Part shown: one piece after another, positions 42,458 to 47,947 of the stretch
Numbering within the stretch: position 1 is the first letter of the stretch
Layout of the letters: each line of letters opens with the position of its first letter
Assembly: GCF_004366715.1 (NCBI RefSeq)
Contig: NZ_SOQZ01000001.1
Location: 558,001-622,000 of the forward strand
DNA: 64,000 bases
Source of the DNA: Meridianimaribacter flavus
Lineage (GTDB): Bacteria; Bacteroidota; Bacteroidia; Flavobacteriales; Flavobacteriaceae
Reading direction: 5' to 3'
Program-made: the position numbers and the translations under genes
The notes under the pieces: model-generated
The model's database searches: none
Told to the model about the DNA's origin: nothing
What the model saw: only the letters and a program-made list of their open reading frames with translations

Positions 42458-43186
42458 ATGAATTTAATAGTAGATGTTGGTAATTCTTATGTGAAATTCG
42501 CTGTATTTCAGTCATATGAGTTAATAGATAAAGTGTTTTTTAAATTAGAGGACTTTGAAAAAGAGTTTAAAATAATTTTAAAAAATCACGAAAAAATTAA
42601 TAGATGTATTGTTTCTTCAGTAGGAAAACTCAATACATCTCATCTAAAAGCAATCCAAAAAAAGCTAGATGTTCTTGTTTTGGACTCTAATACTAAACTT
42701 CCGTTTAAAAACTTGTATGATACTCCTAAAACACTTGGTGTAGATAGAATTGCTTTAGTAAGTGCTTCTGTAAAACAGTTTCCTGATAATAATGCTTTAA
42801 TTATTGATGCAGGTACTTGTATAACTTATGATTTTATTAATACTGAAAATGAATATCTTGGAGGTGCTATTTCACCAGGAATTAGAATGCGATATAAAGC
42901 ATTAAATAATTTAACTGCAAATCTTCCGTTATTAGATACTGAACTTCCAAAAGACTTTATTGGAACTGCGACAGACAGTTCAATACACTCTGGAGTTGTA
43001 AATGGAATTTTAAAAGAAATTGATGGTGTTATAGACCAATATGAAGAAAAATACCCACATTTAACAGTTATTTTAACAGGCGGAGACGCTAATTTCTTGT
43101 CAAAACAATTAAAAAATAGCATATTTGCCAACTCTAATTTTCTTTTAGAAGGTTTAAACTTTATTTTAGAATTTAATTCAAACTAA
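42458..43186 (+). CDS. coaX: Type III pantothenate kinase
   Basis: The start is ATG 42458 (MNLIVDVGNSYVKFAV), giving 242 residues; the frame stays open upstream through the antisense of tRNA-Phe, which is not coding. CoaX belongs to the ASKHA fold: DVGNS is the phosphate-1 loop, GVDRIALVSA follows and IIDAGTCITYDF is the phosphate-2/adenosine segment near residue 117. It makes 4-phosphopantothenate, the first step of coenzyme A synthesis. The stop overlaps the next ATG by one base. Confidence 0.95.
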   Translation: MNLIVDVGNSYVKFAVFQSYELIDKVFFKLEDFEKEFKIILKNHEKINRCIVSSVGKLNTSHLKAIQKKLDVLVLDSNTKLPFKNLYDTPKTLGVDRIALVSASVKQFPDNNALIIDAGTCITYDFINTENEYLGGAISPGIRMRYKALNNLTANLPLLDTELPKDFIGTATDSSIHSGVVNGILKEIDGVIDQYEEKYPHLTVILTGGDANFLSKQLKNSIFANSNFLLEGLNFILEFNSN

Positions 43187-44460
43187 TGATAAAAAGACTT
43201 GTAGTAGTTTTAATAACTTTTTTTGCATTACAGTCACATGCTCAAGAAGGTACAGCTTCGCCATATTCATTTTACGGAATAGGAAGTTTAAAATTTAAAG
43301 GTACAGTTGAGAATAGAAGTATGGGTGGATTGAGCATTTATACTGATAGTATCCATATTAATTTAAGAAACCCAGCAGGATACGCTGGTAATAATTTGAA
43401 AATTTGGAACGAAGAAAGCAGACCAGTTAAATTTACAGTAGGAGGAAGCTACTCAAGCACTAACTTAAAGAGTGAATCGCAAAGCGATAATACAAGTACT
43501 ACAACTTTTGATTATTTTGCACTTTCAGTCCCAATGGGGAAATTTGGATTAGGAATGGGGTTATTGCCATACACATCAGTAGGTTATAAACTTGAATCTA
43601 ATAACGACGACGGAAATATAAACAATAGATATACAGGAGAAGGAGGTCTTAATAAAGCATTTTTGGCAATAGGTTATCAAATTACTGAAGATCTTAGTGT
43701 AGGTGTCGATGCTAATTATAATTTTGGGAATATTCAAAACAATGTAGCAGAGTATAGATACGATGACGATGGAGTGTTAATTCAATATGCAACTATTGAA
43801 GCCAATAGATCTGATTTAAGTGGGCTAAACTTTAACATTGGTGTATCATACAAAACAATGGTAAGTAACAAGCTTGAGCTTATTTCTGGGTTAACCTATT
43901 CGCCTAAAAGTAAAATTGGCTCAAACAACTCAAGAACCTTTACAGCAGGTACAAACACTATTGAATCCGATTTAGCTGCTGAAGGCTTAGATCAAACCGA
44001 TTTAACTTTGCCTTCAAGCTTTTCTTTTGGAGTAGGTATAGGTCAACCAAGAAAATGGTTTTTAGGAGCTGAATATTCGTCTCAAAACACAAGCGAATTT
44101 TCAAACCCAATTTTTTCTATAGATAATACCAATTTTGTAAACGCGTCTTCGTTTTCATTAGGAGGGTTTTATATTCCTAATTACGATTCTTTTTCAGGGT
44201 ATTGGAAAAGAGCAACTTATAGAGCAGGTATGCGCTTTGAACATACAGGGTTAAAAATAAATAATGAGGATATTAGAGAGTTTGGCATGTCTTTTGGAGT
44301 TGGATTACCAGTTGGAGGTATGTTTTCTAATGCAAACCTTGGATTAGAGTTTGGTAAGCGTGGAACAACTAACGCAAATTTAATACAAGAGAATTTCATT
44401 AATTTCCAACTAAGTTTATCTTTAAACGATAGATGGTTCCAAAAAATTAAATATAACTAA
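43186..44460 (+). CDS. Outer-membrane beta-barrel protein, unknown function
   Basis: This 424-residue protein has a signal peptide (MIKRLVVVLITFFALQSHAQ) and alternating hydrophobic strands with a FadL/PorV-like start (SPYSFYGIGSLKFKGTVENRSMGG). It is typical of Bacteroidota outer-membrane barrels annotated only as membrane protein. It is translationally linked to coaX upstream and lies 18 bases before the TPR gene. The surroundings, including lptC downstream, suggest a cell-envelope role, but no substrate can be read. Confidence 0.82.
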   Translation: MIKRLVVVLITFFALQSHAQEGTASPYSFYGIGSLKFKGTVENRSMGGLSIYTDSIHINLRNPAGYAGNNLKIWNEESRPVKFTVGGSYSSTNLKSESQSDNTSTTTFDYFALSVPMGKFGLGMGLLPYTSVGYKLESNNDDGNINNRYTGEGGLNKAFLAIGYQITEDLSVGVDANYNFGNIQNNVAEYRYDDDGVLIQYATIEANRSDLSGLNFNIGVSYKTMVSNKLELISGLTYSPKSKIGSNNSRTFTAGTNTIESDLAAEGLDQTDLTLPSSFSFGVGIGQPRKWFLGAEYSSQNTSEFSNPIFSIDNTNFVNASSFSLGGFYIPNYDSFSGYWKRATYRAGMRFEHTGLKINNEDIREFGMSFGVGLPVGGMFSNANLGLEFGKRGTTNANLIQENFINFQLSLSLNDRWFQKIKYN

Positions 44461-44478: not shown

Positions 44479-45861
44479 ATGAAGACTAAAATTACTTTAA
44501 TACTAGTTGCCTTGTTTATGAGTGTTAACCTTGGTTTTGCTCAGCAAGATGAAGAGTGCATGACCAACTTAACAATCTTTACAGATTACTACAAGAGTAA
44601 AAAGTATGATGAGGCTTATGAGCCATGGATGAAAGTTAGAAATAAATGTCCAAAGTTTAATAGAGCTATCTATGCTTACGGAGAAAAAATATTAAAACAC
44701 AAAATTGATAACTCTACTGGAGCTGAACAAAAAGCATATATAGAAGATTTAATGCTGTTATGGGATAAAGCCCTAGAATATTTTCCAAGTCACTATGATT
44801 TAGGAGAAGTATTATCAGATAAAGGTTTGTTAATGTATGATAATAAGAAAGCTCTTGGTGTTACAGATAAACAATTGTTTGATGCATTTGATAAAGCTTA
44901 CAAGCAAGATTTAGAAAATTTCACAAGTGCAAAAGGTTTGTATGTATACTTTACTTCTATAGTTGATATGTATAAAGCTGGACAAGCGCCAATTCAAGAT
45001 GTATTTAATAAGTACGATGACATCTCTGATAAAATCGAAAAAGAAGTAGGAAACTTTACTGAGAAGTTAAATAAGCTAGTTACTAAAGAAGAGTCTGGTC
45101 AAAAATTATCTTCAAAAGAAGAAAAGTATAAAAAGTACTATGAAGACTCATTAGAAGCTTACGATAAGATTTCTGGTAGTATTGATACATATTTAGGTCA
45201 GTTAGCTAACTGTGAAAACCTAATTCCTTTATACAAGAAAGATTTCGAAACCTATAAAAACGATGCAGTTTGGTTAAAACGTGCTGTAAACAGAATGTAT
45301 AACAAAGAATGTACTGATGATCCATTGTATATTGAGCTAGTAAAAGCGTATGATGCTACTGATCCATCTGCAGATACTAAATACTTTGTGGCTACAATAT
45401 TATTTAACCAAGGTAAGGATAACGAAGCTATGGATTATTTAAAACAAGCTTTCGACCTTCAAACGGATACTTACAAAAAAGGTAAACTTGCTGAAAAAAT
45501 TGGTTCTATCTTAAAGAAAAAAGGAAGATATGGAGAAGCTAGAGGTTACTATAGAGAATCTTTAAAGTTAAACCCATCAAACGGAAGACCACACTTAGCT
45601 ATTGCTGCTATGTATGCTGCTAGTGCAAACAACTGTGGTGATACAAACTTTAACAAAAGAGCAATGTTCTGGTATGCTGCACAAGAAGCACTTAAAGCTG
45701 GTAAAGTTGATGCTAACCTTAAGTCAGCTGCAAACCAAACTTACGAGAGCTATATGGCAAAAGCACCTTCTAGAAGTGAGATTTTCTCTTGTAGTTGTTC
45801 AGGAGAAGTTATTAAGTTTAACTGTTGGACAGGAGGTAGTGTAACCGTACCAAGTCTTTAA
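44479..45861 (+). CDS. Exported tetratricopeptide-repeat protein
   Basis: This 460-residue protein has a signal peptide ending LGFAQ, then helical repeats. Clear TPR units lie near the end (AEKIGSILKKKGRYGEARGYYRESLKLNPSNGRPHLAIAAMY). A Lys/Glu-rich coiled section is in the middle (VTKEESGQKLSSKEEKYKKYYEDS). It is probably a periplasmic scaffold; partners are unknown. Its stop overlaps the lptC start by one base, and a strong terminator hairpin lies 32 bases further on, inside lptC. Confidence 0.85.
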   Translation: MKTKITLILVALFMSVNLGFAQQDEECMTNLTIFTDYYKSKKYDEAYEPWMKVRNKCPKFNRAIYAYGEKILKHKIDNSTGAEQKAYIEDLMLLWDKALEYFPSHYDLGEVLSDKGLLMYDNKKALGVTDKQLFDAFDKAYKQDLENFTSAKGLYVYFTSIVDMYKAGQAPIQDVFNKYDDISDKIEKEVGNFTEKLNKLVTKEESGQKLSSKEEKYKKYYEDSLEAYDKISGSIDTYLGQLANCENLIPLYKKDFETYKNDAVWLKRAVNRMYNKECTDDPLYIELVKAYDATDPSADTKYFVATILFNQGKDNEAMDYLKQAFDLQTDTYKKGKLAEKIGSILKKKGRYGEARGYYRESLKLNPSNGRPHLAIAAMYAASANNCGDTNFNKRAMFWYAAQEALKAGKVDANLKSAANQTYESYMAKAPSRSEIFSCSCSGEVIKFNCWTGGSVTVPSL

Positions 45862-46427
45862 TGAAAGCACATATTTTACATAGTATAAAAAACATAGTCA
45901 CAGTAATTGCTGTGACTATGTTTTTTTCATGTAAAAACAATTTTAAAGAAGTTCAAAAAGTTGGTATTCTGCAAAACGAGCCTATTGGAGAAGCAGAACA
46001 TATCGATTTAAAATACACCGAAAAACTTGAAGATTCAGGTAAATTAAAGGCAAACTTAAAAAGTCCTAAAATGTTTGATTACTCCAACAGGAGTTTTGCG
46101 TTTTCTGAATTTCCTCAAGGCATACATCTTACCGTTTTTGACGAAGAAAATAACAAAAGCGTTATTGTTTCTGACTATGCTATTTTTTATAGCGAAACCG
46201 ATCTTATAGATCTTCAAGGTAACGTAGTAATTTCTACTCACAGTAGAGATACGCTATTTGCCGAACAACTTTACTACGACCAAAAAAGAGAATGGTTATT
46301 TACAAACAAACCCGTAACCTTGCGTTCTGGCTCTGAGATAAGCCACGGAAAAGGTTTTGACTCTGACTCTAACTTTAAAAATTTTGAAGTTACTGAGATG
46401 AGTGGTATTGTTTATTTGGATGAATAA
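45861..46427 (+). CDS. lptC: LPS export ABC transporter periplasmic protein LptC
   Basis: This 188-residue lipoprotein has lipobox TMFFSC. The LptC beta-jellyroll pattern is visible in LKANLKSPKMFDYSN, FPQGIHLTVFD, SDYAIFYSETDLIDLQGNVVI and ISHGKGFDSDSNFKNFEVTEMSG. LptC couples the LptBFG transporter to the periplasmic LptA bridge for lipopolysaccharide export. The start is fixed by the one-base overlap with the TPR stop and by the need for a signal peptide. Unusually, the codons for the signal peptide contain a perfect terminator hairpin (45893-45927). Confidence 0.88.
   Translation: MKAHILHSIKNIVTVIAVTMFFSCKNNFKEVQKVGILQNEPIGEAEHIDLKYTEKLEDSGKLKANLKSPKMFDYSNRSFAFSEFPQGIHLTVFDEENNKSVIVSDYAIFYSETDLIDLQGNVVISTHSRDTLFAEQLYYDQKREWLFTNKPVTLRSGSEISHGKGFDSDSNFKNFEVTEMSGIVYLDE
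45893..45927 (+). terminator. lptC: Intrinsic terminator inside the lptC signal-peptide codons
   Basis: Perfect 11-base arms CATAGTCACAG (45893-45903) and CTGTGACTATG (45910-45920) enclose TAATTG and are followed by seven T (45921-45927). It encodes residues of the LptC signal peptide and lies 32 bases after the TPR stop. It can end part of the upstream operon transcript and attenuate lptC. Confidence 0.75.
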
Positions 46428-46432
46428 TTAGT

Positions 46433-46440
46433 TATCTTTG
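46433..46440 (+). promoter_or_regulatory. TATCTTTG promoter box for the 63-residue membrane protein and CorC-like gene
   Basis: TATCTTTG is a full match to TAnnTTTG, 5 bases after the lptC stop and 22 bases before ATG 46463. It would make the downstream pair independent of lptC. Confidence 0.55.
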
Positions 46441-46657: not shown

Positions 46658-47947
46658 ATGGATTTCAGTATCTTGATTATTGTTTTATCACTGCTTTTAT
46701 CTGCCTTTTTTTCTGGTATGGAAATCGCTTATGTGTCTTCAAACAAGATACACATTGAAATTGAAAAAAAGCAGGACGATTTTCTTGCAAAAATATTAAG
46801 ACGACTTACCGAAAGACCTTCTAAATATATTGCCACAATGCTTATTGGTAATAATATAGCATTGGTAATTTACGGTTTTGTAATGGGAGACGTTCTTGTT
46901 GATTGGTTTCAATCCATGTTGCCTACCGATTCAGGATTTGTACACTATTTGCTTACCGATTTAAGCTTACTTTCCCAAACGATTATCTCAACAATAATCA
47001 TTTTAATAACTGCCGAATTTTTACCAAAGGTATTTTTTCAAATTTATGCTAATTCTTTTCTTAAGATTTTTGCATTACCAGCGTATATTTTTTACCTATT
47101 GTTTTGGTTTATTTCCTCTTTTGTGATTTGGATTTCTGACCTTATTTTGAAATACTTTTTTAAAACCGATGGAGACGATGTACAGTTGGCAATGACCAAA
47201 GTTGAACTGGGTAATTACATAAGTGAGCAAATGGAGGCTGTTGAGGAGCATGAAGAAGTGGATAGTGAGATTCAGATTTTTCAAAACGCCTTAGAGTTTT
47301 CTGAAGTAAAAACTAGAGAGGTTATGATACCAAGAACCGAAATAGTTGCTGTTGAGGTTAACGATTCTATCAAAAACATCAATAACTTATTTACTACTTC
47401 TGGTTTGTCAAAAATCTTGGTATACAAAGACACTATTGATGATGTTTTGGGCTATGTGCATTCTTTTGAGTTGTTTAAAAAACCAAAGTCTATTAAATCC
47501 ATCACACTTCCTGTAGAGTTTGTTCCAGAAACTATGCTTGCCAAAGATGTGCTTAATATTCTTACTAAAAAGCGAAAAAGTATTGCAGTTGTTATAGATG
47601 AGTATGGTGGGACATCTGGTATAATGACGGTTGAAGATATTATAGAAGAATTATTTGGTGAAATTGAAGACGAGCACGATACAGTGGCTTTAATCGAAGA
47701 AAAAATTGACGATAAAAACTATAAATTTTCGGCGCGTTTAGAAGTGGATTATCTCAACGAAGCCTATAAACTTAATCTGCCAGAAGGCGAAAACTACGAA
47801 ACTTTAGGAGGCTTAATAGTGGATGAAACCGAAGAAATACCTCAGGTTGATACCCAAGTTGTTATAGAAAATTTCCTGTTTACAATCTTAGAAGTGTCTT
47901 CTACAAAAATTGATGTGGTTTCTCTTAAAATCCTCGAAGAAGAATAA
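46658..47947 (+). CDS. Hemolysin/CorC family protein (DUF21-CBS-CorC_HlyC)
   Basis: This 429-residue inner-membrane protein has an N-terminal DUF21/CNNM membrane domain with three or four helices (about 1-190). Two CBS repeats follow (about 205-330; REVMIPRTEIVAVEV, then VVIDEYGGTSGIMTVEDIIEELFGEIEDEHD) and a C-terminal CorC_HlyC domain. Members take part in magnesium or cobalt handling and some are annotated GldE in flavobacteria. Hemolytic activity should not be assumed. The CBS pair likely binds adenine nucleotides. Confidence 0.9.
   Translation: MDFSILIIVLSLLLSAFFSGMEIAYVSSNKIHIEIEKKQDDFLAKILRRLTERPSKYIATMLIGNNIALVIYGFVMGDVLVDWFQSMLPTDSGFVHYLLTDLSLLSQTIISTIIILITAEFLPKVFFQIYANSFLKIFALPAYIFYLLFWFISSFVIWISDLILKYFFKTDGDDVQLAMTKVELGNYISEQMEAVEEHEEVDSEIQIFQNALEFSEVKTREVMIPRTEIVAVEVNDSIKNINNLFTTSGLSKILVYKDTIDDVLGYVHSFELFKKPKSIKSITLPVEFVPETMLAKDVLNILTKKRKSIAVVIDEYGGTSGIMTVEDIIEELFGEIEDEHDTVALIEEKIDDKNYKFSARLEVDYLNEAYKLNLPEGENYETLGGLIVDETEEIPQVDTQVVIENFLFTILEVSSTKIDVVSLKILEEE

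Follow-up and report, generated by a model that had tools for sequence, protein, structure and literature searches.

How is lptC expressed when a hairpin and T tract resembling an intrinsic transcription terminator lie inside its own signal-peptide codons, and is it the RNA or the protein that has kept them there? The locus that raises this question belongs to Meridianimaribacter flavus (genome of 3.2 Mb, labelled G000), and the coordinates given below are those of the window, the whole stretch of 64,000 nucleotides of DNA that was analysed, unless another locus is named. The features concerned are as follows.

43186-44460, + strand: open reading frame (ORF) for a secreted protein without a Pfam match, probably an outer-membrane protein
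44479-45861, + strand: TPR gene upstream of lptC, encoding a secreted protein of 460 aa with Pfam TPR matches; its stop codon TAA is at 45859-45861
45859-45863, + strand: TAATG stop-start overlap of the TPR gene and lptC, with one base common to both, read from the sequence
45861-46427, + strand: lptC (PF06835), with a lipoprotein signal peptide and the lipobox FFSC, the latter read from the sequence
45887-45927, + strand: hairpin and T tract, terminator-like and coding at once, as judged by fold, covariation, synonymous null, selection on the T tract and a match to covariance model R1
46433-46440, + strand: TATCTTTG, a match to TAnnTTTG just past lptC, predicted promoter of the following genes
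46658-47947, + strand: gene for a CNNM/CorC protein, downstream of lptC

We identified the lptC product by its PF06835 domain (54.1 bits in Pfam, against a cut-off of 21), which follows an N-terminal signal; signal and lipobox were judged by eye. A later start cannot keep both the signal and the lipobox; for the lipobox this point was made in an earlier sequence-only reading of this DNA, and it is confirmed here from the sequence. Between lptC and the CNNM/CorC gene lies an ORF of 63 aa. The tight junction with the TPR gene is widespread, as the start codon stands no more than about 5 nt from the TPR stop in most of the 135 genera described below.

The core of the hairpin consists of 11-base arms (45893-45903 and 45910-45920) enclosing a 6-base loop, with seven T at 45921-45927. 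The sequence-only reading had described a perfect 11-base stem, 6-base loop and seven T within the lptC frame after the TPR stop, and both description and coordinates were correct. Flanking A and T runs lengthen the stem to 18 bp from 45887, with a loop of 4-6, and the distance from the TPR stop is accordingly 25 nt for the 18-bp stem or 31 nt for the 11-bp core. The 18-bp hairpin has a minimum free energy of -23.2 kcal/mol (z -9.8) and its 71-nt context one of -28.6 kcal/mol (z -8.5), with none of 200 shuffles as good. It occupies lptC codons 10-22 and the peptide encoded is IVTVIAVTMFF. In form it has the stable stem of at least about five pairs, the short loop and the directly 3' T tract by which intrinsic terminators are recognized. 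A standard terminator scan of the window did not list it, probably because the stem uses most of the T run, and Rfam 15 returned no match for it above the gathering score, giving only a chance-level miRNA match (21.5 vs 80 bits). The covariance model R1 matches it at E 4.5e-11. A survey of 464 kb of the M. flavus genome yielded 55 strong terminator-like hairpins with a loop of at most 8, among which only the lptC hairpin falls in the opening 120 nt of an ORF and a single other one falls in the middle of an ORF; strong hairpins of this type are otherwise almost confined to sequence outside ORFs. An outer helix ACAT/ATGT, suggested by the fold of the window, was rejected as it has no clear covariation in relatives. 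We also observed an AnATA motif (window 45874-45886), conserved some 10 nt upstream of the base of the stem; in relatives it lies 25-29 nt before the hairpin centre, with A at -27 in 118 of 135, and pairing with the far side does not explain its conservation there.

Conservation across the family was assessed with one genome per genus, gathered without regard to the signal peptide. Part of the locus sampling used MFFSCKNN among the query peptides and favours hairpin bearers; the family counts are free of this peptide. Among Flavobacteriaceae the hairpin is present at lptC in 137 of the 142 genera with an aligned lptC, in 135 of them within the lptC frame, and it starts a median of 29 nt past the TPR stop. 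Ten more divergent genera were inspected by eye, and eight have it. The 109 lptC loci gave 94 hairpins with 48 distinct 11-bp stems. Within a set of 31 diverse stems, two-sided changes were found at 11 of 12 stem pairs, and the covariation score was 0.670, compared with 0.285 after shuffling and 0.06-0.18 after sliding. On a FastTree tree of the 135 genera, pairs m3-m14 have undergone 5-33 Watson-Crick exchanges per pair, and pairs m4-m10 form in 133-135 of the genera. As a null model we recoded each locus 200 times, drawing synonymous codons at the frequencies of that locus. A strong hairpin is present in 92 of the 101 loci with an intact frame, and all 92 beat at least 95% of their synonymous recodings (56 beat all 200). 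Since the 135 hairpins specify 116 different ten-residue peptides, it appears that the protein follows the RNA. The sequence-only reading had regarded stem-destroying synonymous changes in relatives as evidence against a dual role; we found the opposite, namely two-sided changes that keep the pairing and retention of the hairpin throughout those 137 genera. Its proposal that the same bases hold two codes is borne out by the covariation and by the synonymous null, in which the RNA fold is kept beyond what the amino acids need. These comparisons indicate that selection acts on the RNA fold, which was kept while the protein letters changed.

The T tract gives a similar picture. Its five T columns, with T in 133-134 of 135 genera, are more strongly conserved than any others in the region. 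The Phe codons within it are TTT in 227 cases and TTC in one, as against 575:111 in the rest of lptC (p = 7e-14), indicating that the tract is selected as T and not merely as Phe. This conservation and the preference for TTT point to a U tract and hence to a terminator, not a mere hairpin. A bidirectional terminator was rejected, as the A run is less conserved than the T run.

At four loci (L011, L080 from Jejuia pallidilutea, L083 from Xanthomarina sp. F1114, and L118) the lptC signal peptide no longer comes from the hairpin, while the hairpin and T7 are retained behind the TPR stop. In L080, L083 and L118 lptC begins again further down, with a signal peptide that lacks the hairpin, and a short ORF from the old start crosses the hairpin, leaving 0-2 nt between its stop and the new start of lptC. 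In L011 a second, hairpin-free signal lies further down lptC, and the frame over the hairpin is fused to it in frame. Judged by relatedness, at least three events have produced these displaced copies. The hairpin thus persists where the lptC signal has no further need of it, as does an open frame over it, which argues for selection on RNA, and the sequences of the displaced copies show the RNA and signal-peptide functions separated. L233 (G108) was considered as a further displaced lptC and rejected, being merely a frameshift in lptC: a short duplicated stretch breaks the lptC frame downstream of an intact hairpin, through either a frameshift or an assembly error. A tandem duplication of the TPR gene and lptC was seen at L242:101-3787 (G021), where the hairpin is present in both copies and the second lptC encodes a shortened product of 104 aa.

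The hairpin is found in nearly all genera of Flavobacteriaceae, and its range extends to at least four further families of the order (f2, f4, f7 and f13). At the loci examined it is absent or weak in families f5, f6, f8, f11, f12 and f15 and in the genus Flavobacterium, and among the 30 loci read across the phylum it occurs only in those of Flavobacteriaceae. One locus titled as a Bacteroidales metagenome-assembled genome (L108) carries the hairpin, and its origin is uncertain. The Flavobacterium loci retain the TPR gene before lptC, which suggests that the element can be lost, or that it was never gained there.

We consider it probable, from the sequence features described, that the hairpin and T tract form a working intrinsic terminator that ends most TPR transcripts, and that a minority reading through makes lptC mRNA. 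The lptC start codon precedes the hairpin, and lptC mRNA would have to cross it; we propose on this ground that the terminator sets a low ratio of lptC to TPR transcripts. On this simplest model, a leaky terminator would cap the abundant TPR transcript while letting a fraction pass for lptC. The same bases would serve as RNA stem and U tract and also as the hydrophobic h-region and the Phe-Phe ahead of the lipobox Cys, a dual coding that may be possible because a signal peptide accepts almost any hydrophobic residues. Termination in vivo, the fraction read through and the setting of dose by the hairpin are all inferred. In favour of the proposal, the TPR gene has a strong codon bias, at the 97.6th percentile of 332 ORFs, which exceeds that of lptC, at the 88th; the latter is still fairly high, and the ratio need not be extreme, which counts against the proposal. 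Other points against it are that apart from five to six G-C pairs the stem is rich in A+T, that terminated transcripts would hold an lptC start without a stop codon, at the cost of ribosome rescue, and that the hairpin is missing in Flavobacterium and several families, often despite a TPR gene before lptC.

The genes downstream appear to be supplied in another way. TAnnTTTG is the -7 promoter motif of Bacteroidota, and in 56 of 103 loci it occurs between -10 and +70 relative to the stop of lptC, compared with 11 of 507 80-nt windows before lptC. The predicted promoter after lptC is likely to serve the following genes independently of read-through. As the motif is common after lptC and rare before it, the downstream genes seem to be self-promoted, and lptC alone would depend on read-through.

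Termination at this hairpin could in addition be governed by translation, a stronger form of the same model that includes it. The terminator would fire if the leading ribosome halts at the stop codon of the TPR gene, and would be blocked if that ribosome re-initiates on lptC through the TAATG and enters the stem. We see this as a real possibility, at slightly under an even chance. The accessible text of a study in E. coli (PMC4824070) describes how a ribosome at a nearby stop codon represses a terminator, which reaches full strength beyond about 27 nt. The median spacing of 29 nt between TPR stop and stem is near this interference limit, and would be about the closest at which a ribosome on the TPR stop spares the terminator and one entering lptC does not. 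That the start codon adjoins the TPR stop in most genera is also consistent with coupling, as is the frame over the hairpin in displaced copies, open almost to the new start in L080, L083 and L118 and fused in L011. On the other hand, the same study reports that a terminator placed about 30 bp past a start codon works efficiently in E. coli and is little repressed, and ordinary terminators of M. flavus often start 12-38 nt after a stop, which makes the spacing at lptC not special. Given such efficiency after a start codon and such spacing elsewhere, plain leakiness suffices.

A role apart from termination was also weighed. The hairpin might stabilise or process a 3' end, a nuclease cutting in or near lptC and the hairpin then protecting the TPR mRNA, and a stable fold directly after an apparently highly expressed gene would suit this; an unbroken T tract under selection is nevertheless the mark of intrinsic termination and is unneeded for protection, and we find such a role unlikely. 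The location of the hairpin within signal-peptide codons would fit an effect on translation, the mRNA fold slowing the ribosome while the LptC signal peptide is being made or exported. We hold this to be very improbable, as the displaced copies leave the hairpin with the TPR gene and have a working lptC signal without one, the LptC signal peptides of Flavobacterium also lack it, and the selection for T would be left unexplained. The near-perfect palindrome and its fixed position might suggest a DNA operator for a regulator, an idea still less probable and one that we rejected: arm letters exchange freely if paired (at m10, A-T 52, T-A 45 and G-C 33), showing that pairing and not sequence is kept, and the T run is retained, with much lower conservation in the A run facing it. 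Finally, GTC, ACA, GCA, GCT, GTG, ACT and ATG can pair with one another, and hydrophobic and Phe codons are T-rich, from which a by-product of hydrophobic codons and chance could be imagined. The 92 out of 92 loci exceeding their recodings and the 116 different peptides leave this reading a negligible probability, and the synonymous null and the covariation refute it.

The leaky terminator favoured here has relatives among known systems. Like intrinsic (Rho-independent) terminators, the lptC hairpin has a stable stem, a short loop and an adjoining T tract and lies tens of nucleotides past a stop codon; unlike them in general, this putative terminator lies wholly in the frame of the next gene and covaries family-wide. 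Internal operon terminators that set gene ratios have been mapped in intergenic regions of Methanococcus maripaludis (PMC10450193), and here too a predicted terminator stands between co-transcribed genes and would lower the downstream one, but the overlapping TPR and lptC genes leave no intergenic region, and the element itself codes for protein. In E. coli there are predicted terminators and 3' ends inside ORFs, as is the lptC hairpin, and those in the first 100 bp can work; in contrast to the lptC hairpin, deep conservation or a fixed junction geometry is not reported for them in the accessible portions of these studies (PMC4824070, PMC7815308). The pyrBI (pyrL) attenuator of E. coli, as the available text of PMC4824070 presents it, has a translated frame through the terminator, where the position of the ribosome may decide read-through. 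TPR-lptC likewise has a translated frame across the hairpin, that of lptC in 135 of 137 genera and, in the displaced copies, a leader ORF or a fused frame, and L080, L083 and L118 resemble the pyrBI arrangement of a leader ORF and terminator ahead of a gene. It differs in that a separate leader ORF exists solely in these three loci; the window and most genera have no separate leader peptide and use lptC itself, the leader being the controlled gene's own signal peptide, and the lptC system has no known sensed metabolite or pause site. In the open-access literature we found no report of a family-wide covarying terminator in the signal-peptide codons of a downstream gene. Terminators internal to operons or to ORFs are known kinds, as are attenuators controlled by the ribosome, pyrBI among them, and what appears to be new is a terminator-like element in signal-peptide codons.

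A weak R1 match elsewhere in the M. flavus genome led to a CD225 (PF04505) gene overlapping a DUF2752 (PF10825) gene.

L250:1477-1890 (G000:C4:55076-55489): CD225-DUF2752 junction, with hairpin and T8 at about 1515-1556

Both hairpin and T8 fall within the first transmembrane codons of DUF2752, at a distance of 24 nt past the CD225 stop. Among the 21 loci with alignable starts, M. flavus included, most have a hairpin and T tract, although their stems differ; 17 of the 21 beat at least 95% of synonymous recodings, and some, with loops of 12-15, are weaker. By these comparisons it is a second, unrelated junction with the same design as TPR-lptC. Junction-embedded hairpins are otherwise rare in the surveyed part of the M. 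flavus genome, and several other R1 matches resemble ordinary terminators behind ORFs. With two junctions documented, embedding of terminators may be general. More tentatively, and at distinctly less than an even chance, we suggest a general flavobacterial device in which a terminator sits in the N-terminal hydrophobic codons of an overlapping downstream gene, whose transcription would need a leading ribosome to cross the stop-start junction; such an attenuator would have no leader peptide of its own, that role falling to the signal peptide or membrane anchor. Two further observations concern single sites. At G000:C1:195133 (L292:15130-15205) the gene for a membrane protein without a Pfam match may carry a third embedded hairpin, GTTAAGGTAA/TTACCTTAAC, at its start; this gene is present in only 2 of 70 genomes. 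At L243:~1436-1481 (G139:C3:107520-107564, minus strand) an R1 match reads ATG GCT ATA TTT TTT ATT ATA GCT ATG TTT TTT and may encode a further hydrophobic segment in which a hairpin and T tract are embedded.

The TPR-lptC junction provides a search rule for such elements, a hairpin and T tract about 15-35 nt past the stop of an overlapping upstream gene, and a caution that RNA, and not protein export alone, can shape signal-peptide sequences. Throughout a bacterial family the same bases hold two codes, which the displaced copies take apart. The junction is also a natural test of transcription-translation coupling in Bacteroidota; if the coupled form of attenuation is true, transcription of lptC would report on translation across TPR-lptC. 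For the organisms themselves, the arrangement points to a simple means of fixing how much LptC, a probably essential part of the envelope, is made.
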